From NCBI GenBank assembly GCA_003693705.1, contig RBZT01000800.1, positions 1 to 33,434 on the forward strand: a stretch of DNA of 33,434 nucleotides, read 5' to 3'. Below are positions 1 to 31,787 of this stretch, piece after piece (position 1 is the first letter of the stretch; every line of letters starts with the position of its first letter). Source of the stretch: Polymyxa betae. Its lineage: Eukaryota; Endomyxa; Phytomyxea; Plasmodiophorida; Plasmodiophoridae. The notes under the pieces are model-generated. The model searched no databases. It saw only the letters and a list, made by a program, of their open reading frames with translations, and was not told where the DNA came from. The position numbers and the translations under genes are program-made.

Positions 1-1050
1 GACTTCCATTGAAGTCCCGTCCCCTATGATCACAGACTTAGTATCGGGTGCCCGCATGTTGACAAGATTCGTGCTGTCTCGTATCATGTGGGCCGTGCAT
101 CCGGAGTCAATCCACCATTTTGTCTTGTCTTTAGACTCCGTTGTAGTTGCCATGAAGGTTGCGTGGAGTTCTGCTTCGGGCGGCCCGTCATCCGATATGA
201 TTTCTCGGCAGTTGCGCGCGATGTGACCTGTTTTCCGACAGCGGTGGCAGGTGATGCCTATGCTCCTTCCGCCTTGTCGCTTTTTGTTGGGATAACGTTT
301 CCCATCTCTCTGGCCGCGAGCGGAGAACGCCGCGTCATTTCCGTCTTTCTCCTTATCGCCCCGGCGGGCGCTTCCTCCCGCACGTTTCTTGTGGTGCGCT
401 TCTTCAATCTCTGCCTCGTCGATCAGGAACTTGATGACTTCGTCCAAGTTTCTCTTGTTGTCGCCTCGTTCACACCGAATTGCCGCTGCTGCGTGCTTGA
501 GATAGTGCGGCAATTTGCTCAACACAAGGACGATAATGTCTTCTTCGTCCATGTCGGCGTTCATGGTCTCGAGCTGCTTCGTCATGCTCTTGACCTTATC
601 CAGAAATGCAGACATTGACGGGAAGTCTTTGAACTGCATGTTATCGAGCTCCCTCCTGCGACGTTGGATGTCGCTTCTCGACTTTCCTTCGTGATAGCTT
701 TTCAACTGGCTCCATGCTTCGCTCGGAGAACGCTTTCCGACGATCTTGATCTTCATGCTATCATCGATACACTTGACGAGCTGAGACATGGCCAGTTTGG
801 ATCTCTTCTTGAAGTCAGCCTGTTCGTTTGGGTTGTCTTCTTCCTTCTCAGTTCCTTCGAGGATGTCCATGACTCCATAGTTGTCGGCCGCTAGCAGGAA
901 CTCCCATGACCACATCAGCCAGTTGTCGTCGGACAGCTTGCTGCTCGTGAACTTCCCAGACGCCGATTGCATTGTCGTCAAGGATATCAGTTCCTTGGTT
1001 TCCCGCGCTCGGGTGACGTTGAGTTGAACGTCTTCTGTTGCTGGGCCCAT
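1..1050 (-). CDS. Ty1/copia retrotransposon Gag-protease, 5' part, runs off the left edge
   Basis: The minus-strand frame is open for 350 codons from the ATG at 1050 to the window edge, without a stop. The N-terminal third has the copia Gag look (LSDDNWLMWSWEF, about residues 39-51). A CX2CX4HX4C zinc knuckle (CHRCRKTGHIARNC; C268, C271, H276, C281) follows a basic stretch; in the family it binds genomic RNA. The retroviral-type aspartic protease starts with WWIDSGCTAHM, putting the catalytic D-S-G at residues 315-317. Integrase, reverse transcriptase and RNase H would lie left of the window. The ATG at 1050 lies inside the primer-binding site, so translation may instead start at Met27. The intact frame suggests a fairly young copy. 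Family assignment is firm; activity cannot be judged. Confidence 0.93.
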   Translation of the reverse strand, partial: MGPATEDVQLNVTRARETKELISLTTMQSASGKFTSSKLSDDNWLMWSWEFLLAADNYGVMDILEGTEKEEDNPNEQADFKKRSKLAMSQLVKCIDDSMKIKIVGKRSPSEAWSQLKSYHEGKSRSDIQRRRRELDNMQFKDFPSMSAFLDKVKSMTKQLETMNADMDEEDIIVLVLSKLPHYLKHAAAAIRCERGDNKRNLDEVIKFLIDEAEIEEAHHKKRAGGSARRGDKEKDGNDAAFSARGQRDGKRYPNKKRQGGRSIGITCHRCRKTGHIARNCREIISDDGPPEAELHATFMATTTESKDKTKWWIDSGCTAHMIRDSTNLVNMRAPDTKSVIIGDGTSMEV

Positions 1051-1054
1051 AACC
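1041..1054 (-). promoter_or_regulatory. Primer-binding site matching an initiator tRNA-Met internal fragment
   Basis: On the minus strand these 14 bases read GGTTATGGGCCCAG. This is the exact complement of the anticodon stem-loop of eukaryotic initiator tRNA-Met (CUGGGCCCAUAACC). Drosophila copia is known to use a 5' half of this tRNA, rather than its 3' end, as minus-strand primer, with this same site. The site lies directly downstream of the predicted LTR end and contains the first gag ATG. Confidence 0.85.
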
Positions 1055-1869: not shown

Positions 1870-3260
1870 ACAACTTGATCAGCAATAAACTGAACAACCC
1901 TACTACAATGTGTGCAATGATTAAGAGTACAGTCTTGTACGCCTGAAGGATTCGTTGATTGCAATCGTTCGCAAAAGCTGTTTATATTTTGTTGCTGAAT
2001 ATCATTCCTCTCGAAGCTACATAAAGGTTTTCCTGCCTTTTGTAAAGGTTGCAGTTTGAGCAAAGACATTGTAACCTCATTCCTCTCTTGTTGCAAACAT
2101 GTTTATGTGACTAAAGTGAGGGGATTCCTCTGTACTATAGCTATTGGACTGGATCGGTTCTTTCTGGTTCTTATCGCTACAGGCGGCGCTGCACATAGTC
2201 TGATCATAATTATCAAGATTCGGACACCTCTCGACTCTATCAATTCCGGAACCTTTCCGTCTTCTCATGAGAACATTCATTATCCACAATATTGTTCATA
2301 ATCTTTCCCTAAACGATAATTTGTGCCTGGATTCAACATAGCCAAAGGTCGTGTCTGACTTTATACTGTTCCTCAATCGTGGGAATTTAGAAATTGCATT
2401 AACAGAGGGATGAGTGAGAGAGTGGCTTCTGTGTCCAGTCATTTACCTCCATGTCGCATTTGCGCTAATTTTCGTACTCATCTTCTCGTCGTGGTGGCGT
2501 ACTGGCACGAGTGTACGTGATACAATACATCTGTGTTCTTTCGATCTGCGTTTACATCAATTCGTGGTCTCGACTCCCTCGTCAAATATATGTTTCGCAT
2601 ATATTGATGATATGCATTTTCAAGGAATGGAATATATCTACGCTATTGAGGTCTTCTGATATTCAAGCTGTAGAGTAAACATGTTTCGAAAAAAATCAAG
2701 GCATTCTTGTGGGAGAATCGTTTCAGGAATATTGTGGACTCGGAGTCGATTAACTTCATCTCATTTATATTTGGGAGCTTTTGCAAAGTTCTTTCAGCTG
2801 GAAAGTAGGTCTGTTCAGAGATGGTGGTAAAAGATCGTGTCCGATCGTTGAGAGTTTCCCGATGCCGTCATTATGGATTCCGGCTCGATCTAGCACGAAA
2901 TGTGTAATAGCAATAGAAGAGCTGTTTACCATTTCAAGCGTATGATGCGTGAATACTACAGAATACTGGAAGTGTGCATTGCCGTAACTGGCTCTACATT
3001 GAGTGCTGATGAGATAATTTTCATGTCGTAAGGACAGTGGGTAGAGCTGAATTGTCCAGAACCACATTCATTTTCCCCCAAAACGGGTTTTGGTCATAAT
3101 CGCTAATACACGAGACAGAGTTGATGACTGTGTCGTTATACCAGATTTTATTATGTGGGCTGCTTTCGTTAGAGAGATAGAATGCTTTTCTCTTTGGTAA
3201 TTTTGATTTTGCAGTGTTCGCACTGTTTGACTTGTAGCTGCGTTATTGATGATTTCGATA
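1870..3260. other. Intergenic stretch with no convincing gene
   Basis: Apart from repeat copies B' (2049-2088) and A' (2141-2219), nothing is supported. The sequence is AT-rich. A 100-codon minus-strand frame at 2765-3067 has no recognisable domain, and no exon partners were found. Confidence 0.5.
2141..2219 (+). repeat. Direct repeat A, copy 2
   Basis: Second copy of the block at 1267-1355, in the same orientation. It is preceded at 2049-2088 by a block resembling 1377-1416. The two blocks occur in swapped order relative to copy 1, so this is not a simple tandem duplication. Confidence 0.75.
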
Positions 3261-3485
3261 GGGTCGGGAAAATACTATTTTTTATTTATTTTTCGCTAAA
3301 CCCGAGAGGGAATTACTCTCTGGAAATTGTTGAATTCTACAAAAATCCATCAAATCAAATTACATTACAGATCATTCCTGAATTTTTTCCAAGCGACGGA
3401 ATTAATTCTTCTTCTCTTGTAACCGATGAGAATAAAGTATTCCTAAATATAAAAATTAATTCCCTATCCGAAACCTAACCCTAAC
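3261..3485 (+). repeat. Dispersed repeat family, copy i, ending in a telomere-like CCTAACCCTAAC tail
   Basis: Begins GGGTCGGGAAAATA, continues through AAACCCGAGAGGGAATT and ends AAACCTAACCCTAAC. The reverse complement of 31648-31787 has the same head, the same internal ACCGAGAGGGAAT block and the same (CCCTAA)-type tail. The element looks non-coding. Confidence 0.7.
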
Positions 3486-8708: not shown

Positions 8709-9203
8709 TGTAAGATTTCAGACGGAATTCAAATTTGACAATGAATTGATTTGTGACTGATTGTTATCAGGTGTATGGTCAGGCATGCCGCATGCGTTTG
8801 GTAAGCACATGCCGAACTCAGAGGGTGAAAAATGCAAAACCGAAGCTGACGTCGCCGCCGGTTTGGTTCGGTAGGACTTCCCAAATCCGCACCACACGGG
8901 AAGCGGAAATGAGGCGGCATGTGTGAACGAATGGAAAGGTCTGAGTATCCACCTTTTCTCATGCTCCATCGATACAAAGTCAGACTCGTCTTCAACGGAT
9001 TATGAAAGAGATCCTGTTGATCAAGAGCGACAAATTGATCCAATGGAGGATTCTATGTTAAAATTTGAGCGTGATATTCTGAAAACCATTAACGATCAAG
9101 AGCAATGTTACAAGCCCTACTTTTATACAAGAGAATCAGATGAGAGAGCTTGGAATCGATAGCCTTGCCCACTTGCTGAAGATCAAACAAAAGATTATGC
9201 AAT

Positions 9204-9877
9204 TTGCTGACCAGCGTTTCCGTTCGAGTATCAATAGCAAATGCTTTGATGAACTCCTTGGCATGTATCTTCAAGAGATTTCAACTCGACCAGACCATGA
9301 TTCCGGTGATCCCGTTAAAGTTTATGAGCGACTTCCAGAAAACTGGAAACAAGACAAAGAACCATTCTCAGAGACATTTTCTTATCATTTATGCCCATTG
9401 CCCTGGAGTCATGGTCCTAATGGACATTGCATCTATGTGCTCGAGTTTGAATTCTCTGAACAATTCACAAAGGCTACAGTTTTTAGGAAAAGTCACAGGT
9501 GCTGTCGAGTATCTACCACGGAGCCATACCTTGAATACCTGAAAGCTCAAAAACAATCTCGAAAAATCTTCAAGAAAACGAATCACGAATACAACATTCA
9601 GCAAATCAAACAAGCCTGCGAAGACCCCACCGGTGCAGAATTTTACAAAGTTATCAAACAAATAGAAACTAGGCTCAATAAAAAATTACGACAGAACCAG
9701 ATCCATCACGATCAACCCAACACTGAAACGGAAGAGATTTCGCAAAAGTTTGAATCTATTTTTCGGACAAAACGACGTCAACCCTCGGACACAGAACAAT
9801 ACGACATAAAGAACGACCTAAGGAAAATCGAACAGCAATGGATGGCCGATACAAAAAGAAAGACAAATTCACCATAA
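9204..9877 (+). pseudogene. LINE ORF2 N-terminal and linker part
   Basis: From about 9530 the frame reads YLEYLKAQKQSRKIFKKT, followed by a Lys/Gln-rich helical region up to 9877; this is typical of the linker between endonuclease and reverse transcriptase in LINEs. Upstream, two overlapping frames (starting 9140 and 9204) are both open. One contains HFLIIYAHCPG, which could be a decayed endonuclease strand. The endonuclease catalytic residues were not identified. Confidence 0.5.
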
Positions 9878-10929
9878 GAGAGCTACAACAAGCGATCAAA
9901 AAGACAAACATGAAATCATCTAAAGGACCAGACGGAATCTCAAACATATAAAAATTGTTTGTGAGGATAATGAGTTCAGCGAAATGATGCTAATTAACGC
10001 CATCAATAATCAAACATTCCTCGCAGCAAAATACCCTACAGATCTGAAAAGTGCTCGTATAATTCTACTACCCAAACCAAAACCTGGGGATTACCGACCC
10101 ATCAGCTTACTTCCCAATCTATCTAAATTAGTATAATCCATGATACAGATTCGAATGCGACATACGATAGAATCCAAACTCCCACGTCACCAATTTGGAT
10201 GTAGACCAGGACACTCGACTTCTGCGCTTGCTGCATTATGCTGGAGCAGCAACAAGCAACGACCAATCGGCACATTTTAGTTAAAAAAATGTTGAAATTA
10301 GAAATTCCCGCATATCTGATAAAAATAGTCTACGAGTGGCTAACAGACCGAACATTCACAGTACAGCACAGAGGATATGAGACTACACCACGATCACAGG
10401 AAAACGGCATCCCTCAGGGGTCCAGCTTAAGCGTAATTTTATGGTTAATATTTGTGTACGACATCCCATTAAACCCCAGACTTTCAAATACATATGTAGA
10501 TGATACGATCGGATGGGCGATTGAATCTGAGAAAGAATACGTAGATGGTACATTAAGACACCAACATTGGTAAAATGGTCCGCTGGTGTAATAAGAACAA
10601 AATCAAGATCAATGCAGATCTAACATACGTCATTTTCAATGAATATGATCCCAACGATCAAATACAGTTCCAGGATATGACTATAAAAACGACTGATTCA
10701 ATACGGTATTTAGGTGCTGAAATCACAGCAATAAGGGAGAACAACAACGCGACTTTTCTAATCCAAAAGACTAAAATTGCAAAAAAATCTACAAACGATG
10801 TCAACTGATAAAACGTCTGCGGAAATACAAAATTCCAGAACAAATACTCCACCAATCATGTCATGCTTTTATTAGAGGTATTTTCAATTACTACATACCA
10901 TGGACTGCAGATGAATACGCGATCAAACA
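9868..10929 (+). pseudogene. LINE reverse transcriptase, broken and lacking catalytic motif A
   Basis: Motifs in order: SSKGPDGIS (motif 0/1 region, then TAA), DYRPISLLPNLSK (then TAA), LPRHQFGCRPGHST, NGIPQGSSLSVILWLIF (motif B) and NTYVDDTIGWAIES (motif C, catalytic YVDD present). The motif A strand with the first catalytic Asp should lie between FGCRPGHST and LVKKMLKLEIPAYL but is missing. At about 10240-10270 the text jumps from RPIGTF to ILVKKM, a deletion of roughly a dozen codons plus a frameshift. The region after motif C (WCNKNKIKINAD, IRYLGAEI) matches the usual palm/thumb. At least three frames are needed, so the copy cannot function. Confidence 0.85.
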
Positions 10930-10964
10930 AACCATGCGACCTTTAGAAATGGCATCATGAATAT

Positions 10965-11697
10965 ATGAGAACATATACAGGATGTATCAAGTCAACACCG
11001 ATCCCTTTATTATACGCAATATGGAGATTCCTTTTCTTCCAAGACAAACTTTTTACCGACAGTGTCCTTACAATGATTAAAGCCGAACCACAAGGAAACC
11101 TACTAGGTGATGATTACCGTAGATGGGATCAGGATGGTTGCAAAGTAGACGGCTGGACACCATTTGGACGCGTTAGATATGCTATTGAAGAAACGAGTGC
11201 AAAAAAATTCGATTCTAGAATCCACGCACAGGAAATTATAGATTCTGAGACCCTTGAGGGACTCAGTAAATGTAAATTCCTCATCTATACACGAGAGACT
11301 GCCATGCAATTACATCAAAAAGGAGATCTCATCCCAGAAAATCCTGATATTGCTATCTGGACAGATGGAAGTCTAATCAGAGAATCTTCTAGAACAGAAC
11401 GCATCATTCTCACAGGCGCTGCTGCAATACTACATATCTCCAACCATGAAGAGTACGACCAGATATCCGAGCACCTAATCAAAATTGCACTAAATCTCAA
11501 AAACGCTGTATCGAGCTACGAAACTAAAATTATAGCCATACAAGCTGGCCTAGATATAGTTCTTCCATTAGAACTTGTAGATAGGAAGATCCATCTATTC
11601 ACAGATTCACTCTCATGCATCCAACAACTAGCCACCCTTCCATATAAATTTAAATTATACTACACATATCTGACCCGGATATACACAGTACTTTATT
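10965..11697 (+). pseudogene. LINE connector and RNase H segment, copy 1 (C-terminally truncated)
   Basis: RNase H acidic residues are visible: Asp in AIWTDGSLI (about 11360), Glu in SSYETKIIAIQAGL (about 11520) and Asp in HLFTDSLSCIQQLA (about 11600). The last part of the domain (strand with the fourth acidic residue) is absent: after KLYYTYLTRIYTVL the frame runs into a second copy of the same domain. This frame is open for 246 codons, longer than the neighbouring LINE pieces. Confidence 0.8.
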
Positions 11698-11699
11698 CG

Positions 11700-12078
11700 A
11701 ATTAGAAATTCATACGACAATACAGACAGAAAATGCCACATCCAGCTATGAGGCAGAAATCATAGCTCTGCAATCCGGCGTTACTTCATTACTGGAAATG
11801 TATCCCGGGAACAGACACATTCACATATTTACAGATTCTGTATCGTGCTTACAACAACTGGCAGGTCTCCCGTATAAATATAAATTTGTCAACGCAATCG
11901 TAAAAGATGTTGCTTCAAAATTAGCTGAGCTTAGTGATGATAATGATGTTGAACTACACTTTATTCCTAGTCATACAGACCTGATTGCAGAGAGTGATGC
12001 GATAGACGAACTCGCCAAACAAGCCGCTATAGACGGGGATCTCATAGAGCATGATCCATTGTCTCTTCATACAAACTA
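11700..12078 (+). pseudogene. LINE RNase H segment, copy 2 (N-terminally truncated)
   Basis: Repeats the second half of the domain: ATSSYEAEIIALQSG, HIFTDSVSCLQQLAGLPYKY, then the part missing from copy 1, including HFIPSHTDLIAESDAIDELA, which supplies the final acidic residue. It starts about 230 bases after the equivalent point in copy 1 and is clearly diverged from it (for example FTDSLSCIQQL versus FTDSVSCLQQL). The first catalytic Asp (WTDGS) is not repeated. Confidence 0.8.
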
Positions 12079-12430
12079 GTGTATAAACAATTAGAGAAAC
12101 AGAAGCTACAGAAATACCTGGAAAACAAGGTGAAACCGAGTCGATTTCCAAACTATCCGAAACGACAACTCCTCATAGAAGGCTATACCCGAACAGAAAT
12201 TCAAGACGGAGACACTGAAAATCGGATGTATTGCGATAGCCCTCTATTAAATAGGGTACGAACAGGACATACTCGAGCGCGAGTGCACTTGCAATTTAAA
12301 AATTGAGACCAGTGACCAGTGTCGTCATTGTGAGCGCAAAAGAGAAACCGTTGAGCACCAATTACTGAAATGCCCAAAATTCAAAGATCCACTTAGGAGG
12401 AAAACAGAAAGAAATGCAAACAGCTAAAAC
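12079..12430 (+). pseudogene. LINE ORF2 C-terminus with zinc knuckle
   Basis: A 75-codon frame ends at 12306 with LNRVRTGHTRARVHLQF. This is followed one base out of frame by a Cys-x2-Cys...Glu-His-x4-Cys-Pro cluster (CRHC at 12320, EH at 12353, C at 12371). The 'RTGH' stretch followed by a CCHC knuckle is the usual end of many RNase H-bearing LINEs. A single-base frameshift separates the two parts. Confidence 0.75.
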
Positions 12431-12830: not shown

Positions 12831-13362
12831 TTGCCCAGTCCAAACAGTATGAATAAGTATGATCTTTTGATAAAGCGGTGATAAAGCTCAGAGATTGTGC
12901 AAATTTGCCAATAATTAAGTTCAGCAGGATGCCACAACTAGCTTAATTATGGTAATTATGGCATATGCCATAATTAGTGAGGGCCAGCTCTAACCGAAAG
13001 ATCCCGACAAGACAAATCTTTTTGCGTATTCCAATTTCAGATTTCAATATTGTTGACGGTGTTCATCACGCATCCTTATCTTCCAAAATTGCGCAGATTT
13101 AAAAGCAAAGTGCGCCGTTGCGAATGTCTAGTATATATATATTACACTCAAAGAATGAAAATTGAACCCTGTCGAGTTAGGATGGCGGTTATTAGAGAGG
13201 GGGCTGCGCGCACCTGTTGTACCGGTACTGACCCTCAGGTGTTCAATAAACGTACTGTAGCAGCCTCGAAGAAAAAAGCGTTCAGCTTCAGCCACGTATG
13301 TATGATGCTGTACGCAACCCTCGAGTGTTAAGACTTTACATTCTGATTCAGTGATTCCCACC
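12831..13362. other. Upstream region of the F-box-like gene
   Basis: No gene is supported. A GC-rich patch at 13196-13260 (with TCAATAAACG) resembles an LTR or promoter fragment. A 93-codon plus-strand frame at 13050-13331 has no recognisable content. The promoter of the next gene should lie here. Confidence 0.35.
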
Positions 13363-15106
13363 ATGCATGTTCACGTTGTCTTGATGGCGGCGGCCGTACT
13401 GGTCCTGGGGGAGGCGGCCTTTTCGGCCGACCAGGAATCTGATCTCGTTCGTCTCCCGGATGAGATCTTGGAGCAGTGCTGCGTCTCTGCAACAGACCTG
13501 GGACATCTCAGTCTGACATCCCGCCGACTGCTGCATTTGGGCCGTCGCGAGGTCGTACAGGCTCTGTTCGAATCGCTCAGTACCCGTAGAAACCAGATCC
13601 CCCAGCTGGTCCGTATTCTTGCCGCCCGAGTCCGGTACGATCCCGAGACGCTCGATCATGTGAAGAAAGTTCCTCCTCAGCTGGTCATGGGAGTGTATCA
13701 GTTAATTATGTGGAATGAGATATTGAGAAATGAGGAGAAGGCCCAACTACTAAGCTGCATGATTCGAAGACTGGGCCTGACATTGATGGATGATGAGAAG
13801 GAGTTCTTAATTCATGTCAGTGATGGTGATCCGATACCCGGACTTCGTGTCCGTGGCCTGCCGGAACCCGTTCTTGTTGTGATCAAGCAGAAGTATGCAG
13901 AGATCTTGCGTTGGCATCAATAAGGGTTCCTGGACCAAATCCTCTTTCAACTCCTACCGTGTCAAGCCCGTCAAATCAGGCGTTCCAATTGCATGGATCT
14001 CAAAAACGGACTGCGCCCTCTGTATTCGTTTCCGCCCAGTTATATGTTAGGACCTAGCTCCGGAGCCGCCCTCCATATTCTGAAATCGTTTCCCAAACAA
14101 TCTCATCCTCTTTCTGAGTGGCAGAACTTACTGACTCTGCGTCAGCTCGGGATCGTGTTCACTCTCCGTCTATATCTTCAGTATGTCCAGATTCCGCCCG
14201 AATCCATTCCGGATATCGTCCCTCTCCTACATTTAGGCAGCTTCAAGGAAGTATTGAAGCTTTTATGCAGGCTGGTCAAGGCCAGAAGCACCGATGGCTA
14301 TCAGCTGACCCATGATGGACGTACTGGCCTATACCGGGCTCTGCAATGGCTGCGGATCCCGTTTATTCAGCGACAAATCCTGATAAAGCCGGCAATGTTC
14401 ATTAAACACGCCTCCGAAATGTTGGGATCAAACAACTCGGAATTTTTCCGGGGTCTGGAATCGCTTTCGTTCATGCCCGAGATCATCAATAAATCCTATT
14501 CCGCGATTGAGAATTGGCCGCTTCTGAAGATAGCCGCTTCAAAACCGCTTCAAAACAGTTGTTCGATATTGCCCAGATTTTGATGCGGATTCCAAATGCG
14601 TCTTTGTTTGTGAGGGTCCAGGACCGGATTTCCACCATCGATCTCGTTCTTCGAGATTTAATAGGCATGTCTCAGAAGCAGACTATCGACTTCCTATTGT
14701 CCTCGGAATTCATCAAACTGATGCTCTCGAACATCCCAGAACTAAAAGAATCTCTTAAGTCTCTTATCAATGATCGAGATCTGGCACATATCCGTTCTCT
14801 TATTCAACATCCTCTCTATTGGAAGATCCCAGAAGATGTTAAATCTGAAGTCATTCAATATTCAAATATTCATTGTTATCATACCTATATATATTATGCT
14901 CTGCCAAAGAGCCGCTTTAAACAGTTTGACACTGAACCTGAATCGTTTCAAGATTGTTCCAATAAACATGCTTCGTCTCAGCTTTGTGTATTGCTGTGTT
15001 TGCTCTCTCATTTTAGAAGGTTTCTTCTCACAGGCGCGCTCACCTACAGGTTCGCTATCCTATGTAATATTGTTTTGTCACTTGTCAGATTGATGGGAAC
15101 TATTGG
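13363..15106 (+). pseudogene. F-box-like protein with putative signal peptide, frameshifted
   Basis: Exon 1 is 13363-13892 and exon 2 starts at 13980. The 87-bp intron (GTATGC...AATCAG, phase 2) removes the only stop (TAA at 13921) and keeps the frame. The N-terminus is hydrophobic (MHVHVVLMAAAVLVLGEAA), like a signal peptide. An F-box-like stretch follows (LPDEILEQCC, then DLGHLSLTSRRLLHLG, about residues 28-58). Next come helical, Leu-rich segments with no clear domain. At 14540-14561 an 11-base unit, CCGCTTCAAAA, is repeated in tandem; it shifts the frame so that exon 2 stops at 14583. Beyond the repeat, coding-like sequence continues in the other frame (from about 14563 to at least 14850). 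The 3' end abuts a LINE fragment at about 15106. A signal peptide and an F-box normally do not go together, so one reading may be wrong. Confidence 0.6.
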
Positions 15107-21245: not shown

Positions 21246-24200
21246 ATGGACGACGCCACCGCGGCGCTGCAGTCCTGGACGCCGCTCGAGGAGGAGTTCC
21301 TGCTGTCGCTGGTCTCGGCCCGCGTCCACCCTTGGGTCAAATGGGACCTGGTCGTCGCCATCTTCTTCAAGGAGTTCGGCCCGCTCCGTTTCTACACCGC
21401 CGATATGGTTCGTCGTAAGTTCTATAGTATGAGAGCTCGCTGGCATGATGGCGATGGCGTCCCGGCGCTGATGCATGATATGGACGGCATGATGATGATG
21501 CCGCCGCCGCCGCTGCCCTTCCCACGGGCTTCGGCTTCGGTCAGTCGTATTGCAATAACGAAACGTAAATTCTCATGTCGTACGTAGAGTTGTGGGAATA
21601 CTGCCTCACGGGTTCGGATTCTGGACAAGATTAGCCCGCAGATGCAGTTTAAATGGATTCCGAAGGACGACTTACTGGCAGAGGCTGCGCGGACTCCTAT
21701 TAACCCTAACCCTAATCGCCCATCGCCCATCACAATCCCGGCCTCTCCGCCCCCTGTTCCCGTCGATTTCAATCGTCACGACATGCAATGGGGCGACGAT
21801 GAGCACGAGTATCTGAAGGAGCTGGCCGCCACGTTCGATCAGAAATGGGACGTGCTGGCCCGGCTGATGCGGGACCGATTCCCCGATCGATGTCCGTATA
21901 CCGTGGAGATGCTTCGTCAGAAAATCCAGGACGTGATGGTGCCGCCTAAATCACCGATGGGTCTCTCGGTCGACCTGTTTTACCGCTTTAACCAAGAAAG
22001 TAAGATGCACAATGTCCCGCTGCCGGTAACGGTTCCGGACACGTCATCTTCAGAGTCCGCAGATGTTCCTGTCCAGGTGGATTCTGTGCCAGCTGATGTC
22101 CCTGCTATTAATAACACTATCGGTAATGAACCCGCTCTTCCTGATAATTCCATGGCGGACTTCGGTCCATCTGCTCTTTCCTGTGATGGCTTCAATGAGG
22201 CCTGCGACAATTCCAACGAGGCTGATGTTGACTTTTCTTATGTCGCTGAAGTTTCTGACAACCTTGCTGTTGGTGATGCTGTCGTTTCTGATGACGTTGT
22301 CGTCTGTGAAGACGGTGAGCCCCTTCACATTTCTTCAGCTGATCAACCGATCGCTCCTGAACCAATTCGTCAAAACGACCCTCAAGTTGATGTTTTCGAA
22401 AAAGTTGCTGCAGACGATTCAAACGGCGATTTTATTGAGAATGTTCATGTTCCCGACGAAGATGATGATATCATAGAATATGATCAGGAGAATGAGGCCG
22501 TCGAGCCTTATGCTACCAGCGATGACATGGTCGTCCAAGGGACTGCAAAATCTGATTTCCATGAAGATACCAAATCTAAAGAGTCGAGCAAAGCAGCTGA
22601 CCTTGATGACATCGTGGTGGTTGTGTCGGAATTCACACCTGAAGACAACGATTCTGCACATATTGAAGTTCCTGATTATGCGCAGTTTCAAGCCGATCAT
22701 GATCAAAGATTCGAAATTCCTCAAACCGTTGCTGTCGCAGACCATGAAGAATCCGGGATCGCTAAGAACTCCTGTAATCCCCTCAAAGCAGAGGCTGTCG
22801 AATTTGTCGAAAACTTCCATCTGGAATTGTCAGAAAAAGAAGAGCAGCTAGTTGTGCCACCAACTGAACCAGAATCTGTTGATGGAATTCCGTCACAATT
22901 TCTGCCACAACCTGCTGTGGAAGTCACCCATGAAGTTGCGGTTCAGGTCGAGATTCAAGATGATAGGCTGCCGGAATCTGTCGTCGTCGAACAAGCACAA
23001 CCAGAAATCGTTGACCTGTGCAGCGATGAAAATGTCAAAGAAGGTGAAATTGATGCAGACTCTCATCCTGTCGAGATCGCTTCGGATCGTGATGACTCAC
23101 TCTTCGCAAAAGAAGTTGTCATGGATGTTGATTCTCATCAGGATGACATTCAGCTGTATCCTGAAACAGCCGTCATCACAACAGAGGCTGTTATGAATGT
23201 TCTGGACGACGCTCAGCAGAATCAGGAGACCGCTGTCCCTACCACAGATGTTGCCCTGGTTGCGGATGCCATAAACTTGCATAATGATGTTGAAGTTGCC
23301 ATTGAAGAGGCTGCAGGCGTTCACCTCGATGGCAATCAGCCGAATAATGATGCCGAGATCGCCACTGAAATCGTCGATATGGATATGGATGCTCAGCCCG
23401 ATGATATTCAGCTGGATAATGATGTTAAAGTCACCAACGAGACAACCATGGATGCGGATCTTCATGTGGATGATACTCAGCTGTATAATGATGCTGAAAT
23501 CGCCGCTGACGAGGCTGTCATGGCTGTTCGGGAAGCCCTAAAGTCGGGTAAAGCTGCCAAAGACGCCATTAAAGTAGAGGGCTCGGATGCGGATTGGTTT
23601 CTGAACGACATTCCGTTAAATCATGACGCTCAAATCATCTCTAACGGTGTCATACATGTTGCCAAACAAGTCATTGCTGCCAATGTTGTAGCTGATGCTC
23701 CAGCTCCGGCTTCTTCGATGGCCTTCGACAGGAAAATCAAGCCTGAGCCCATTTCTATGCCTGGTATTTTACAATTGCTTATCCTTTTATTTTATTTTAT
23801 TCTTTGCTGTCTTTTCTCTTCAGATTTCTGAAACACTTTTATTGTTCGATTTTCTTATTTTGCGCCCGTTTTACCAGGTTTATTCTACAGTGATGTTGTT
23901 ATTTATCTTTCTATGGATTTTTTCCGTCATTGATGTTGAATCTGAACCCTCTTTTGTTCGATTCTGTTGTTTCTGCTTTTGCTATACATAACATTTTTCT
24001 CTTCTTGATAAATAATCGTTTCTGTCATTAGTCAATCAGAGCTGCGGATGTTAAAGTTTTTGGTTTGATACACTTTTTTCTGTTAGATCAGAGCTACTTT
24101 TCTAGTTTTATTCTCTTTGCGTTCATTCCTTTTTTCCTACAGTTTCATTGATTTGCTGTGCTAAAAGTTGATGAATTTCCTTTTTTTTCATGATTAAATG

Positions 24201-26470
24201 ACATTGTCAGTTTCTGCGTTTTCAACTGTTTTTTGTTTTCATCATATTCTGATTAATTTTTTTTCAGCCGAGGTCATCGTTCCGGACCTTCAGTCACCAA
24301 TCTCCGTCTTCAGCCATGTCCAAGAATCTGTAACTATCACCAAGTCTGTTGCAGGAGCGATTCTAACTACTGGCGCCGACGACACCGAATCAGACGAAGA
24401 CGTTGCCATCCCGAAGCTGACCAATTCGCACATCTGTCATTTCAACGCTTTCGACGATATCGACTCGCTACACGGGCCCGGATACGAATCACCACAAGAT
24501 CTCGCCAACCTCCACTACCAGCTTCTGGCGCCGGATATTAGTTCGGTAGAATCGCCGTCCCGACCGCCGCCCACTCCGAAACAACACGACTCAGATTTCC
24601 TCAAGAACAATCTGGTCGGTCGTGCTATCCGGAAACTGGTCGAAGGGCGCGTCGCCGAGACCGAAATCCACATGGGGAGCGACGCCATCTCGCAGCAGCC
24701 TGAGGCCGCGGAGGTCGTTACGGACGCTCTCAACCCTGTGACGGACTCCGAACCCATAAACGTCCCTGCTGAAGCGATGGTGGTCTCGCCTGCGATCGAT
24801 TTCGATCTCGATGAAAACGACTTCGACATGGACGAGGTGTCGGTGCCGGCCGAGCCCGTCCCGCCACCCAAGGTTACAACGAAACCGCTCACCGCTGCCA
24901 TTTCCAAACGCCGCGGCCGCCCGCCGGCTCCGGTGGGCGCCCTCCCTAGGAAGCGCGGTCGACCCCGTAAGAACGCTCCCAAGGCTGTGGAAGCCAGCGC
25001 TATCAGGAACATGACCGTCGACAAGATCGATCCTGTGCTTGGTTACATTACCAACAGTGGTATCGCTTTGGCTGGTAACATTGCCAAGTCTGACACGAGG
25101 GAACCTCTTCCTGGTAACATTACCGAGTCTGAGAATATCCTGGGCAAGTCCGTCGCTGTTAATGGGAATGTTTTATGCGAATCCCTGGCTGCTAATATCC
25201 CATCTGATGATCGACGTCACGAGCCGTTGGCGGATCAATCTCACCAGACCTGCGAGCTGGAAACGCTTCTTCATAGCAGCATTGTGGTGAGAGCGTTGTC
25301 AAAAGCCGAAGACTTAATCGCAAAGGAAAATGTCAAGCCCAGAGATGATGCTTCGAGTGAGGCTTTGGCGGTCTCTATCGACGCTTCGAAGCTATCAAAG
25401 TCTACAGAAACGCCGATTAATCCCGCTCTCGAGATTTCTTTGCCGACACTATCGAAAGGATCCTCAACGCAGCCGATTATCGAAATCCCACCACAATCCA
25501 TGTCGAAAAATCCTTCGGCTCACTCGATTGTCGACATTCTGCCGCCGTCAAAATCGCAGGAAGCTTTGTGTGTTGAAGGTCCTGGTCCGACAGAATCAAA
25601 AGAACCGTCGGTACAGCCGATTGTCGAAGTTCCGGCACCTTCCAAATTGAAAGCGATCTCGACCAAGCTCGCTGTTGAGAGGCGTTCGCTGTCTAGGGAT
25701 GTTGTTGCGAATTCCACCAAGGAGAAGTTAATTGGCAGTCGTATGAAGGGCGTGAAGAGTGGTAAACAGGCAACAAAGCCGCTCGTGACGCGGTCGGTGA
25801 GCAGCCGTACAAGAAGCTCGAAGAGAGCAGTGTCGCCAATCAGATTGCTGCCAGTACGGAAAAGTAATGACCATTCTGTTTGCTTGAGAACTTTCGTGTT
25901 CTGACTTTGTTTAGGTCGAAGAGTATGTCAGAATGATTTCGCACCACGTAAATCAGGTACTGCTGTTTCTGCTTTTCCTGCTATTTTCAAATTTTTTCAT
26001 CATTTTTAAAAATGTTTTTTTTGTCTTAATTATCGTGTCTGCATTTTTTTGTTGATCTTTCGAAATGACTTTTGGCACTGATGTTGGGCTGTACCTCTAT
26101 ATGTTCGTATTTTTTCGAGTTTTTCAGTTTAGATCTGTTCCTGTTCACTATTCTCGACTAAGCGAAGTTTCTCGCAGATTTTCAAAACGAGTCGTCGGTG
26201 AACACACAGCAGAGCGTTTGCGGTGACGATGTCGGTCCAGACTCAAGTGCGAACATCTCGTGTGATACTATCATGTCTGAAGCGCTTGCAGTCGCCGTAC
26301 AGGACCCGGATCCACCGGGGACTGCTCTGGATACCGAAACTTTATCTGCGAGCACTGAACCGTTGCTGCCTCCAAGATCGACATCTAATAATATGATGGA
26401 GAGCAGCAGTATAGAAATACCAGGACAGTCGAGATGGCTGCTTCCCTCTAAGTCATGTCTGTTACAATAA
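21246..26470 (+). CDS. SANT/Myb-like, AT-hook protein with C-terminal CaaX box (paralogue 1)
   Basis: Model: exons 21246-21539, 21642-23763, 24268-25863, 25915-25956 and 26178-26470; 1448 aa. Intron phases are 0, 1, 1, 1; all are GT...AG. Domains: SANT/Myb-like at about 11-60 (WTPLEEEFLLSLV) and about 146-200 (MQWGDDEHEYLKELA, RLMRDRFPDR). A very acidic region then leads into tandem ~20-24-residue repeats at about 590-790 (cores DDIQLYPE, DDIQLDNDV, DDTQLYNDAE). Two AT-hooks lie at about 1019 and 1034 (KRRGRPP, RKRGRPRK). Three ~18-residue repeats follow at about 1200-1270 (QPIIEIP, HSIVDIL, QPIVEVP). The C-terminus is SRWLLPSKSCLLQ, a CaaX box predicted for farnesylation. The AT-hooks and SANT domains imply DNA binding in the nucleus. 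Introns 2-4 are supported by phase and by the paralogue. The first donor (GTCAGT) is weak, so the exon 1 end is least sure. Confidence 0.75.
23764..24267 (+). other. T-rich 504-bp intron of paralogue 1
   Basis: Donor CCTG|GTATTT and acceptor TTTTTTTTCAG|CC join codon GCC in phase 1. It is much longer and more T-rich than the 50-60 bp introns elsewhere. The matching intron of paralogue 2 (28231-28600) is also long and T-rich. A short extra exon inside cannot be excluded. Confidence 0.65.
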
Positions 26471-27449
26471 TATTCTCTTTTAAATCTCTCTTATTTATGG
26501 TTTTTATCCCAATACACTGTCTTTAGCTTAGTACCGTCGATTCTTCGGTCAACTGCACCAAAAGGCGCTTTGTTTTCCCACAATCAAAGCGATGATTTCA
26601 AGTAAATTTTGAATGAAAATATGGGTGTTTCAAACCAGAATTTTCTTTGAGCAGATTCCTTTGTCACACAGCATGCAAATTTATCAGCGAGTCGCTGCTT
26701 TCGTACAGACGAACCTAACCTGTGCCGATTGGACTTGATTTGCAAAAGGTGAGACGGAAGGCGATTTTGATAATCTTTGACTCTCATTTGGATTGTGTTG
26801 GGTTAGGTTTTATTCTAAGATTCGATGCATTCAGGCAGCACTCTCCTCACAACTAACGAAATTCGCAACCAAGGAACATTGTTGGTCTAACAGGCATTTG
26901 CGATAAAAAAGTTTTTACGGGATCAGAAATAAAACAGGGAATTTTTTAGTACCGCTATTTCTTTGCTGAATCAGTCTTTCCAGAAACTATTTTTACATGC
27001 ATTGAGATTGAATTTCAAGGGGCGCAATAAAAAACTGCGCAAATATTTTCGAGTTCCTGCAAACCCAAATAAACGCAAATATCTTTCCCGTGATTTTCCG
27101 CAAAAAGACCGCAACCGCTTTTGCTAAAGAATCCGATCTAATAACAGCTGTCTGTCATAATTATTCATCCAATGGCAATGAATAGAGATCGAACAAAGTG
27201 GTCTTAATGATCAATTGGCATCCCAGAATTAGATGTTGTTGGCCGTTTGGCCCACGTCGACCTGCCAGAATTGAAGTTTTGCGCTGAGCGACGGATGCTG
27301 CGCCACGGCATTGCGACCCCACTGATATGAGCGTGTCAACCCCCCCCCCCCCGACATACAGTCTCACCCAGTAGCAGGGCCAGCTCAGTTGATCCCAACC
27401 ACCCAGTCGATCCAACCCCAACTAACGCCCCCAGCGCCCCTTCACCCCT
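26471..27449. other. Intergenic spacer between the two SANT genes
   Basis: AT-rich with no open frame of note. It holds a run of 13 C at 27340-27352 about 100 bases before the next ATG, and the promoter of paralogue 2 must lie here. Confidence 0.5.
27340..27352 (+). repeat. Poly-C tract (13 C)
   Basis: Uninterrupted C homopolymer in an otherwise mixed upstream region. Length may be unreliable as sequenced. Confidence 0.8.
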
Positions 27450-30332
27450 ATGCCACCACCCGGCTGTCGGCCCTGGGCGGCCGCCGAAGAACAGTACCTG
27501 GCCGAGCTCGTGGGCCAGCATGGCCGCCAATGGGGCCACTGGGAACTGATCGCCCGCCTCATGCTGCAGCGATTCGGGTCGGCGATTCGCCTCTATACCT
27601 CCCATCTCGTCCAGCAGAAATGGGCGGGCATGTCGCGGCGTCGGAAAGCGCCCCCGGTGGCCAGTAAGTCCCAGCAGCAGCCGCAGCAGCAGCAGCAGGC
27701 GACCCCTGGCTGGTACTGCTATTATGACGGCGATACCGGCTGCTATTACTATGATGATGAGACCGGTGTGCGATACTATCTGGACCCGTCGCAGCTGGTC
27801 CAGTACGACCAGCACCCGGTCGAGTATTACCCGACGCAGTTCGGGGAAGACGCGAGTGTCCCGTTTGTCACCGGGGTGGAGGCCGAGCGACGCGGTCTGC
27901 AATGGCGCTGGACGGGCGAAGAGACGGCGTATTTGCGCGGGCTGATCGCGTCGCATAACCCTACCGACTGGAATATCGTGGCCGGAGCGATGCGACAGCG
28001 ATTCGGGCGCCGATTTCGCGATTATACGATGAACTGCGTGGAGACCAAATGGCATCGGATTAAGGGCAAACAGACAGATCAGCAGGTCGGTAGTGGTGAG
28101 GTCGCTGTCATTGATCTCAGTGGCGACCCGCCGGTCGTACTGGAGCGCACGGAACCCGTTCATCGGCCCACTGTATCCCGTGTAGAGAGTTTCGTCACAA
28201 ATATGGCCGATTTTCGTATTACAGATGAAGGTGAGCTACATCATGTTAATTAATTTATTCACCTGATTTTTTGTCTTTTATATTTATTTACCAGAATTTA
28301 TTGCATTATTATCTTGTGTAAGATTCCTCATCATTTTCGCTTCTTATGTTATTACGGCTTGTTGTGATCTAAATTTTTTGTACATTTTGCTTTCGAACAA
28401 TTTCTGGTCTTTCTATCGCTAGCAATACGATTGACAATCTCTGTTATTCTTTCGTCACCGCATTCCATTTTTTTACTTAATTTTTCTCCTTCCGTTTGCT
28501 CTCACTCCAACAGTTTCCCCTAAACCCAAACCCTAATCGTTCTCCTATTTGTTTTGCGACCTGTCACACATTCGCTCAATTCTTACCACTTTTTTATCAG
28601 GAGCCTCTCAGCCCCATCACGAGGCCGTCTTCTCAGAGGTCGTACCGGCCCCGGCCACCGTCAACGACATGGCCGCCAGCCACGACGCCGACTCCGACGA
28701 AACCGCACCGCTGGATAGTTCGGGTCGTACTGGCCCGCCCTCGAACCTGCCTACGGACGTCGATCCAGCTCATAGCGTGATGGCTGCGTCGCCGGACGTT
28801 TCCAGACTGCGTCAGGTGGTGATGGACGTGCCCGCCCCCGACCATGAAGAGAGCGCGTTCGATAAAGTCGCGTTGGGGCCGCGAACGGCGTCGGTTTCGT
28901 CGCAGCGCGCCATGTCTGACGGGGTCTCGGACTCCGCCGCCATCGAGTTCGCCCGTCTGTCTCAACTGGCGGCTCGGCAAATCGTCAAAACGGATCGCGA
29001 ACGTAAATTGCGACGTCAATCTGAATGGTTCCTCTCAGCCGGTACCATTCGACGTCGTCGCAACTTTTCTGCGCCGATTCCCGTTACTGCTGCCGCTGTC
29101 GCGGATATTCCTTCGAATATTGATTATGAAGCACCACCAGATACGGATATCAACATCAGCACGCATTCCGCGGCGGACATATCTATGATCGGGGCGGATC
29201 TGAGCCTGGCGTCGCAGGCCTCCGCCTCCGAATCGAACTGTGTCGTTCCTATCGATCATGCTCTGACGGACCCCGCCACGGACCTCCCGGATGCCGCTCC
29301 GGCTTTCTCGTCGGTTGCTGCTGACCAGCAGGACACTGCTATATGCGATTTGTCACCTTCAAAGGATGCGGAACCATCGGAGCCTGTTACACCATCGTAT
29401 TCACCTTCGAAGCTTCCTGATCAGCTACAGACAACTGCATCGGTTCAAGTGATCGTCTCCGAAGATCCGCCGCCATCTGATCATGAAGATCTGAATTCGG
29501 CGGCGTCCGCCATCGTTACCAGATCTGCAACGCCTCAGATTCGAAGAACGACGAGATCGTCGAGTTCCGCCCTCGGTCGAAAGCAACGATCCTCGGGGCC
29601 TTTGAAGCGCTCTAAGCGACTGCCGCTGGACCGCCCGACACCGCCGCTACGAAGAAGTCGACGATCGGCAAGTTCGGCCACGGAATCCAGTGTTACTGCG
29701 ACCCCAAACGAGATCGAATCGCGACGAAACCGCCCAAGTTTCGATAAAACTTTTCAACGTGATTCTGATATTTCCAAATGTAAGTTTTTTCCGACTTTTT
29801 TTCAAGTTTTTGCAAACTTGATGTCAATTTGCTTCAATGTTTTCTGTGGCAGTTATTCAGTCCATCTTGGATTCAATTGTTGTTAGATCGGCGGACCGAG
29901 ATGGCCTTGACCAGTACGACCGGGTCTGGGCCGAGTCCGGATCCCGGGCCAGTGTTCGATGGAGGTAGACTATCCCATTTCCGTCTATCTCGATCGCCAT
30001 TCTCATTGATTCTATCTAAATAGATTCTCCCGCTGATGACCAAATTCCTGCAAGATCTCTTTCGGAGCTCAATACAACACCAATAGGTAATGTTACGGCC
30101 TCTGCTTTTGAGCTTTTCGCTCTTTCTAGTTTCAAAGAAATTATCCGTTTGATTCTGTTTTTGGTCTGTTGAAATCAGAGGGATGTTGGGTATCATTGAT
30201 CCAGGTCAATATTGATATAATTCTGTTACAGACTGGCGTGTGGATAACGTTCGAAGAAGGAATGAGCCCGAGCCGACCCCCGTCCTGGAATCGAAATCAT
30301 CCTGGAGATCACGAGCATGTTTAATTCAATAG
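27450..30332 (+). CDS. SANT/Myb-like protein with C-terminal CaaX box (paralogue 2)
   Basis: Model: exons 27450-28230, 28601-29779, 29887-29964, 30024-30086 and 30232-30332; 733 aa, all introns phase 1 with GT...AG. SANT/Myb-like domains are at about 6-58 (WAAAEEQYLAELV, then LIARLMLQRFG) and 150-205 (WRWTGEETAYLRGLI, AMRQRFGRRFRDYT). The linker has a Gln tract (QQQPQQQQQ, about residue 75) and a Tyr-rich patch (WYCYYDGDTGCYYYDDE). The rest is Ser/Pro/Asp-rich with a basic region (LKRSKRLPLDRPTPPLRRSR, about 620). No canonical AT-hook is seen. The protein ends SSWRSRACLIQ, matching SRWLLPSKSCLLQ of paralogue 1, so both carry a CaaX box. It lies 980 bp downstream of paralogue 1 on the same strand and probably arose by tandem duplication. 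Exons 3 and 4 are short and are the least certain. Confidence 0.75.
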
Positions 30333-31647: not shown

Positions 31648-31787
31648 CGTTAGGGTTAGGGTTGGGGATTGAGAATATTATTTTTAGTAATTCAGTCGCA
31701 CGGAAAAAGGTCAGGAAATATTCCCTCTCGGTTTTAGCAAGGAATTTAATCACGAATACGGAGTAATATTTTCCCGAACCCTGCCCC
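31648..31787 (-). repeat. Dispersed repeat family, copy iv, with GTTAGGGTTAGGG end
   Basis: The reverse complement matches copy i (3261-3485): GGTTCGGGAAAATATTA head, ACCGAGAGGGAATA block and a CCCTAACCCTAAC end. It is shorter than copy i because of an internal deletion. Confidence 0.7.

Follow-up and report, generated by a model that had tools for sequence, protein, structure and literature searches.

Two neighbouring genes on a 33,434-base contig of the Polymyxa betae genome (contig C295 of a 24.4 Mb assembly of 541 contigs, this contig in its full length being referred to here as the window) are predicted to encode proteins that carry two Myb-like repeats at the N-terminus and a CaaX box, a signal for prenylation, at the C-terminus. 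The same combination is predicted for four paralogues elsewhere in the genome, which also encodes a farnesyltransferase and a probable lamin. On balance, we think it probable that these are farnesylated Myb proteins, bearing nuclear localisation signals (NLSs), and that they act beside a lamin as tethers for DNA at the inner nuclear membrane.

The tandem gene pair and its Myb-type repeats

The two genes form a tandem pair on the + strand. Gene 1 (21246-26470, five exons) has a predicted product of 1466 amino acids with the tail SRWLLPSKSCLLQ, the last four residues being CLLQ, whilst gene 2 (27450-30332, four exons) has a predicted product of 707 amino acids with the tail SSWRSRACLIQ. The introns of both models are of the GT..AG type and neither model contains an internal stop codon. 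All introns of the pair are in phase 1 except the first of gene 1, which is in phase 0. Of the four models compared for gene 2, only the one that omits an extra exon inside 29853-29964 stays open; the other three go out of frame. In-phase spliced models thus confirm the C-terminal CaaX box that a preliminary description of the window had reported for both proteins (CLLQ and CLIQ). The AT-hooks that it placed in the first gene are also found, a motif search detecting two copies of RGRP, which we take to be the AT-hook core. The features of the pair are as follows.

21246..21539, + strand: gene 1 exon 1, with the start codon and first Myb-like repeat (open frame, GT donor, phase 0)
21276..21440, + strand: gene 1 repeat 1, residues 11-65 (BLAST match to gene 2 repeat 1, E 5e-9; no Pfam match)
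21588..23763, + strand: gene 1 exon 2, with the second repeat and a long acidic region (spliced model)
21789..21956, + strand: gene 1 repeat 2, residues 166-221 (BLAST match to gene 2, E 3e-5; Pfam score for Myb of 12.1 bits, under the cut-off)
24268..25863, + strand: gene 1 exon 3, with two AT-hook cores (spliced model, motif search)
24906..24971, + strand: gene 1 AT-hook cores KRRGRPP and RKRGRPRK (motif search)
25915..25956, + strand: gene 1 exon 4, 42 nt, phase 1-1 (spliced model)
26178..26470, + strand: gene 1 last exon, phase 1, with CLLQ-stop at its end (spliced model)
26456..26470, + strand: gene 1 CaaX box CLLQ and stop codon (spliced model, pattern scan)
27450..28230, + strand: gene 2 exon 1, with both Myb-like repeats (spliced model, Pfam)
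27474..27641, + strand: gene 2 repeat 1, residues 9-64 (Pfam PF00249, 31.7 bits, above cut-off)
27909..28061, + strand: gene 2 repeat 2, residues 154-204 (BLAST match to gene 1 repeat 2, E 1.6e-4)
28601..29779, + strand: gene 2 exon 2, with basic clusters (spliced model, motif search)
30024..30086, + strand: gene 2 exon 3, 63 nt, phase 1-1 (spliced model)
30232..30332, + strand: gene 2 last exon, phase 1, with CLIQ-stop at its end (spliced model)
30318..30332, + strand: gene 2 CaaX box CLIQ and stop codon (spliced model, pattern scan)

When the two proteins are compared by BLAST, two repeats of ~55 residues align (E 5e-9 to 3e-4), with short low-scoring pieces elsewhere. Two N-terminal repeats per gene, as first described, therefore stand, but the second repeat of gene 1 lies ~20 residues away from its earlier placement at 146-200 (~166-221 by BLAST) and the spacing of the repeats is similar rather than equal (~155 residues in gene 1 versus ~145 in gene 2). 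The Pfam cut-off for Myb_DNA-binding (PF00249) is 24.4 bits, a score exceeded, among the five family members scanned, by gene 2 exon 1 (31.7 bits, first repeat) and by the paralogues on contigs C446 (29.7), C287 (26.9) and C140 (39.5). Gene 1 exon 1 matches no family in the Pfam scan and repeat 2 of this gene scores below cut-off for both Myb (12.1 bits) and SANT_DAMP1_like (13.5 bits), so the gene 1 repeats are recognised by their paralogy to those of gene 2.

The repeats had initially been described as SANT/Myb-like and treated as SANT domains. The four window repeats were combined into a profile and searched against the PDB, giving c-Myb as the top match (1h88, E 2e-8) followed by MYB21 (3osf, E 4e-8). 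The 19 matches at E <= 1 comprise 13 Myb proteins (counting WER, which we take to be one), three SNAPC4 matches, CEF1, a cell division control protein and a salivary protein, with no chromatin remodeller among them. As in a basic recognition helix, the C-terminal 20 residues have a net positive charge in 17 of 18 hand-cut repeats, with zero charge in the other (this count leaves out C378, C204, C317 and C154, plus one repeat each of C140 and C418). Taken together, the match to c-Myb and the positive charge point to repeats of the Myb type, in which alignment with c-Myb reveals an insert of ~8 columns (FG..R.YT) ahead of the last helix, and for which DNA binding is more likely than binding to histone tails. 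The repeats are thus closer to Myb DNA-binding repeats than to SANT domains: the PDB profile gives no sign of greater similarity to SANT than to Myb, the opposing hint being the slightly higher score of gene 1 repeat 2 for SANT_DAMP1_like.

Short runs resembling telomeric repeats (TTAGGG or TTTAGGG type) are seen at 21702 in the gene 1 coding region, at 28518-28529 in a gene 2 intron and downstream at 31650, with several more near the C287 paralogue.

A paralogue family and the conservation of its box

Whole-genome protein searches (E <= 1) with both window N-termini and two paralogues as queries returned overlapping sets of locations and define a family of 14 loci: genes 1 and 2 and, named by contig, C446, C287, C319, C140, C47, C418, C510, C204, C378, C154 and two on C317, the second of which is weak (best E 0.01, matched in one of the four query searches). 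Six loci carry the tail S-x-x-C-[LIV]-[LIV]-Q-stop. Besides the window pair, these are C446 (CVVQ), C287 (CLIQ), C319 (CLIQ) and C140 (CIVQ), each with its boxed last exon downstream of the repeats. Models joining the repeats to the box exon are open and in phase in all four cases, and the last intron is in phase 1 in each of them, as it is in the window pair (six of six boxed genes). C446, C287 and C319 share a common structure, with a first intron in phase 0 and a last intron that follows a Glu codon plus G. In C287, the stretch that separates repeat 2 from the CaaX exon contains a tandem array of small exons of 63, 63, 63, 63 and 66 nt, alike in sequence (oriented region 2698-3421). The C154 gene runs toward the contig end and is cut off. 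C378 is a large multi-repeat Myb locus, downstream of which lies an open stretch weakly similar to the MSL3 chromo domain (23.1 bits, cut-off 28).

Aligned from their ends, the six tails have an invariant Cys at -4, Gln at -1 and Ser at -7, with Lys or Arg at -8 in five of them, and the two middle aliphatic positions are occupied by Leu, Ile or Val in 12 of 12 instances. Mean pairwise identity is 0.525 across the last eight residues versus 0.09 across residues -9 to -40. That the box is conserved while the 32 residues preceding it are only ~9% identical points to selection acting on the box within the family.

Could the last exons have been mis-predicted and the box be a coincidence? The splice sites were picked by hand and the models built from sequence alone, which leaves some room for such an error. 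Against it, C[LIV][LIV]Q-stop occurs exactly four times in 13 stretches around the other loci (119 kb, both strands), and these four are the in-phase last exons. Taking 5 kb downstream at each of 11 loci, chance would supply around 0.13 (P about 1e-5), an estimate scaled from a genome-wide scan that gave 80 matches versus 48 for a reversed control, with the pattern drawn from the six known tails. With four more in-phase finds and no others, we regard coincidence as extremely improbable. This test, in which the box of the window genes was sought at other loci, is less biased than one that includes the serine. The string S-x-x-C[LIV][LIV]Q-stop is found 15 times genome-wide, six of these being the family tails, where 0.012 would be expected in 13 x 5 kb, but the serine was chosen after the six tails were known and one of the nine non-family strings has an internal stop. 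The areas were calculated for 13 loci (with the serine) and 11 other loci (box), the final counts of 14 and 12 making a small change. Around six control loci, where the Myb matches are of the ordinary kind, no box was seen within ~1.5 kb (two more loci were excluded, one through overlap and one as a family member).

Two of the nine non-family strings with the serine were inspected, SSWCLIQ (C375) and SINCVIQ (C177), and no Myb repeat was seen by eye within 0.9 kb of either. RRKCVVQ at C275 was considered as a further family tail and rejected: it lies in what appears by eye to be retrotransposon-like sequence, and matching strings occur at C278 and C503.

A different origin for the genes, in which mobile elements made or spread them and the tail serves the element, would fit with the presence of several paralogues on small contigs and of retroelement-like fragments on the window contig itself. 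These fragments, identified by eye, are Copia-like gag and non-LTR (long terminal repeat) reverse transcriptase/RNase H pieces at 1-1053 (- strand) and 9083-12079 (+ strand). The genes are multi-exon with conserved intron phases, however, and no transposase or reverse transcriptase domain was found in the exons and proteins scanned; we consider such an origin very improbable. Elsewhere in the window, there is a weak F-box-like match at 13306-13923 (+ strand; 14 bits, below cut-off).

Proposed farnesylation, a probable lamin and the nuclear envelope

CaaX substrates have a Cys at -4, aliphatic residues at a1 and a2, and Gln, Met, Ser or Ala at X, a pattern followed by all six tails. A genome search with PF00432 (beta-subunit) identified two loci, C345 and C309. 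The C345 exon matches the solved farnesyltransferase beta-subunit (PDB, E 4e-24) and C309 resembles, by eye, the beta-subunit of Rab geranylgeranyltransferase; the search found no third PF00432 locus resembling geranylgeranyltransferase I. PPTA (alpha-type) repeats are present at three genome loci and ICMT at one. The farnesylation suggested at the outset for these proteins is supported to the extent that enzymes for it are encoded. The C-terminal string might instead be inherited and not prenylated, or be kept for another reason, such as serving as a C-terminal peptide-binding motif. Seven relatives do manage without the box and the proteins are predicted only, but the variable positions obey the CaaX rules (Leu, Ile or Val twice, Gln at X) in a genome that encodes farnesyltransferase, and we judge this explanation improbable.

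A candidate lamin was found on another contig.

C425:279300-282600, - strand: probable lamin, combining a rod, a basic cluster, a tail-domain match that stays under the cut-off and the CaaX box CLIM (Pfam, PDB search)

Its PF00038 match scores 43.8 bits (cut-off 40). PF00038 gave matches in five of 14 control genomes, none above cut-off, so a coiled coil alone is weak evidence for a lamin. In C425, however, the same exon contains the basic cluster RKRKRSKR followed by a lamin-tail match (21.9 bits, cut-off 34.3), the next open stretch in the direction of the gene, putatively joined to the rod exon, ends GGSCLIM, and a PDB search with the rod picks out lamin A/C (E 3e-7) and vimentin (E 1e-6). 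C425 is therefore probably a lamin, and the idea that the genome lacks one was rejected on the strength of the rod match. Outside animals, passages of PMC4448529 place lamins in Ichthyosporea, choanoflagellates, oomycetes, Amoebozoa and Rhizaria.

The preliminary description envisaged unrelated parts assembled into a lamin-like solution, which suggests a replacement. The parts do appear unrelated: neither the filament rod (PF00038) nor the lamin tail domain (PF00932) was found in the regions scanned, namely the main exons of genes 1 and 2 together with C446, C287 (short model) and C140. Replacement of the lamin is another matter. If a CaaX route to the nuclear envelope is already in use, by the probable CLIM lamin, the Myb family could plausibly follow it and is unlikely to have replaced the lamin; the Myb CaaX proteins would act beside a lamina and not in place of lamin.

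Basic clusters were found by motif search in all six boxed proteins. From these and from the in-phase models, the repeats, the box, the encoded enzymes and the probable lamin, we infer expression, prenylation, import, rim location and DNA binding for the family. The NLS-like clusters would bring the protein into the nucleus; the Cys of the box would be farnesylated by farnesyltransferase and carboxymethylated by ICMT; the lipid would keep the protein in the inner nuclear membrane in the fashion of a lamin tail; and the Myb repeats, in gene 1 together with the AT-hooks, would grip DNA. Paralogues lacking the box would share the DNA-binding module but be soluble.

Several points weigh against this reading. 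The paralogue splice sites were chosen by hand, and all gene models are predictions. A looser CaaX pattern, applied to the gene strand at 11 loci, gives 12 matches, of which four are the family tails and eight are not linked to any gene model. No Rce1-like protease was matched in the genome search, though introns may hide one. Not every family member needs the box, which was found in about half of them: seven of the 14 loci (C47, C418, C510, C204, C378 and the two on C317) have no such tail by motif search (the only search made at C510, C204, C378 and C317, and within 3 kb only at the second C317 locus). C47 is the nearest paralogue of gene 1 (53.9 bits) and their first repeats group together in a tree with support of 0.99, yet a frame there ends TALGVQ, with no box downstream by motif search. 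C418 is nearest to C140 (66.7 bits), although not clearly grouped with it in the repeat tree, and has a frame that ends PDFIL, again with no box downstream by motif search. Conservation of the CaaX box in homologues, on which the preliminary description had staked its proposal, therefore extends to four more paralogues and fails at seven loci, C47 and C418 among them. The existence of two close pairs (gene 1/C47 and C140/C418) with one boxed member each suggests that the box has been lost or gained more than once.

Finally, CaaX proteins are also found at the endoplasmic reticulum, the plasma membrane or the kinetochore, so the box alone does not give a location, and Gln at the X position is known in farnesylation substrates other than lamins. 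The conserved box might then be a real prenylation signal on a latent transcription factor, held at the endoplasmic reticulum or plasma membrane, or on a mitotic protein like CENP-E/F, the lipid keeping the protein out of the nucleus or at some other site until release. We think this rather unlikely, as the basic clusters in all six proteins and the probable CaaX lamin in the same genome favour the nuclear rim.

Tethering at the inner nuclear membrane could be taken a step further. It is possible, though less likely than not, that a lineage-specific family of farnesylated Myb proteins makes up a second, sequence-reading layer of the lamina beside the true lamin. Each paralogue would fix its own set of DNA sites at the inner nuclear membrane, and proteins would switch between tethered and soluble forms as the CaaX box was repeatedly lost or gained. 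If tethering is correct, the presence of a DNA-binding domain and a lipid anchor in a single chain would connect DNA sites to the nuclear envelope in a very simple way, and DNA may be tied to the envelope in a manner not described before. Because boxed and boxless paralogues exist naturally, what the anchor does can be tested directly.

Comparison with known systems

The preliminary description knew of no family with this architecture, and the searches made since brought none to light. Searches for external homologues with gene 1 (E <= 1), gene 2 (E <= 1) and a five-protein alignment (E <= 0.1) found none, the method depending on shared 5-residue words with ~8000 candidates scored per query from a very large database, such that weak relatives would be missed. 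A literature search for CaaX or farnesyl with SANT or Myb domains revealed no such family, as judged by title and the opening of the abstract in mostly non-subscription papers.

Three known systems bear comparison. With c-Myb and other R2R3-type proteins the family shares tandem repeats with the core W..EE..yL..lV..G..W..ia, as reflected in the profile match to 1h88, but differs in the ~8 extra columns before the last helix, the wide spacing of the repeats and the CaaX tail. With lamins it shares, at the level of motifs, a basic NLS-like cluster and C-terminal CaaX box (six of six tails) and probably the same route of farnesylation; it differs in possessing Myb repeats and in having Gln at X where the C425 lamin has Met. 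Lamins that lack a CaaX box are described in Lophotrochozoa (PMC10125929). The third system is Drosophila Kugelkern, described in passages of PMC10660854 as a farnesylated inner nuclear membrane protein with no apparent homology to lamins apart from the farnesylation site. By description alone, it resembles the family in being a nuclear farnesylated protein without lamin homology and is set apart in being called insect- or Drosophila-specific, with no mention of Myb repeats in those passages. The principle of anchoring is thus a known one, and its union with Myb repeats appears to be new.

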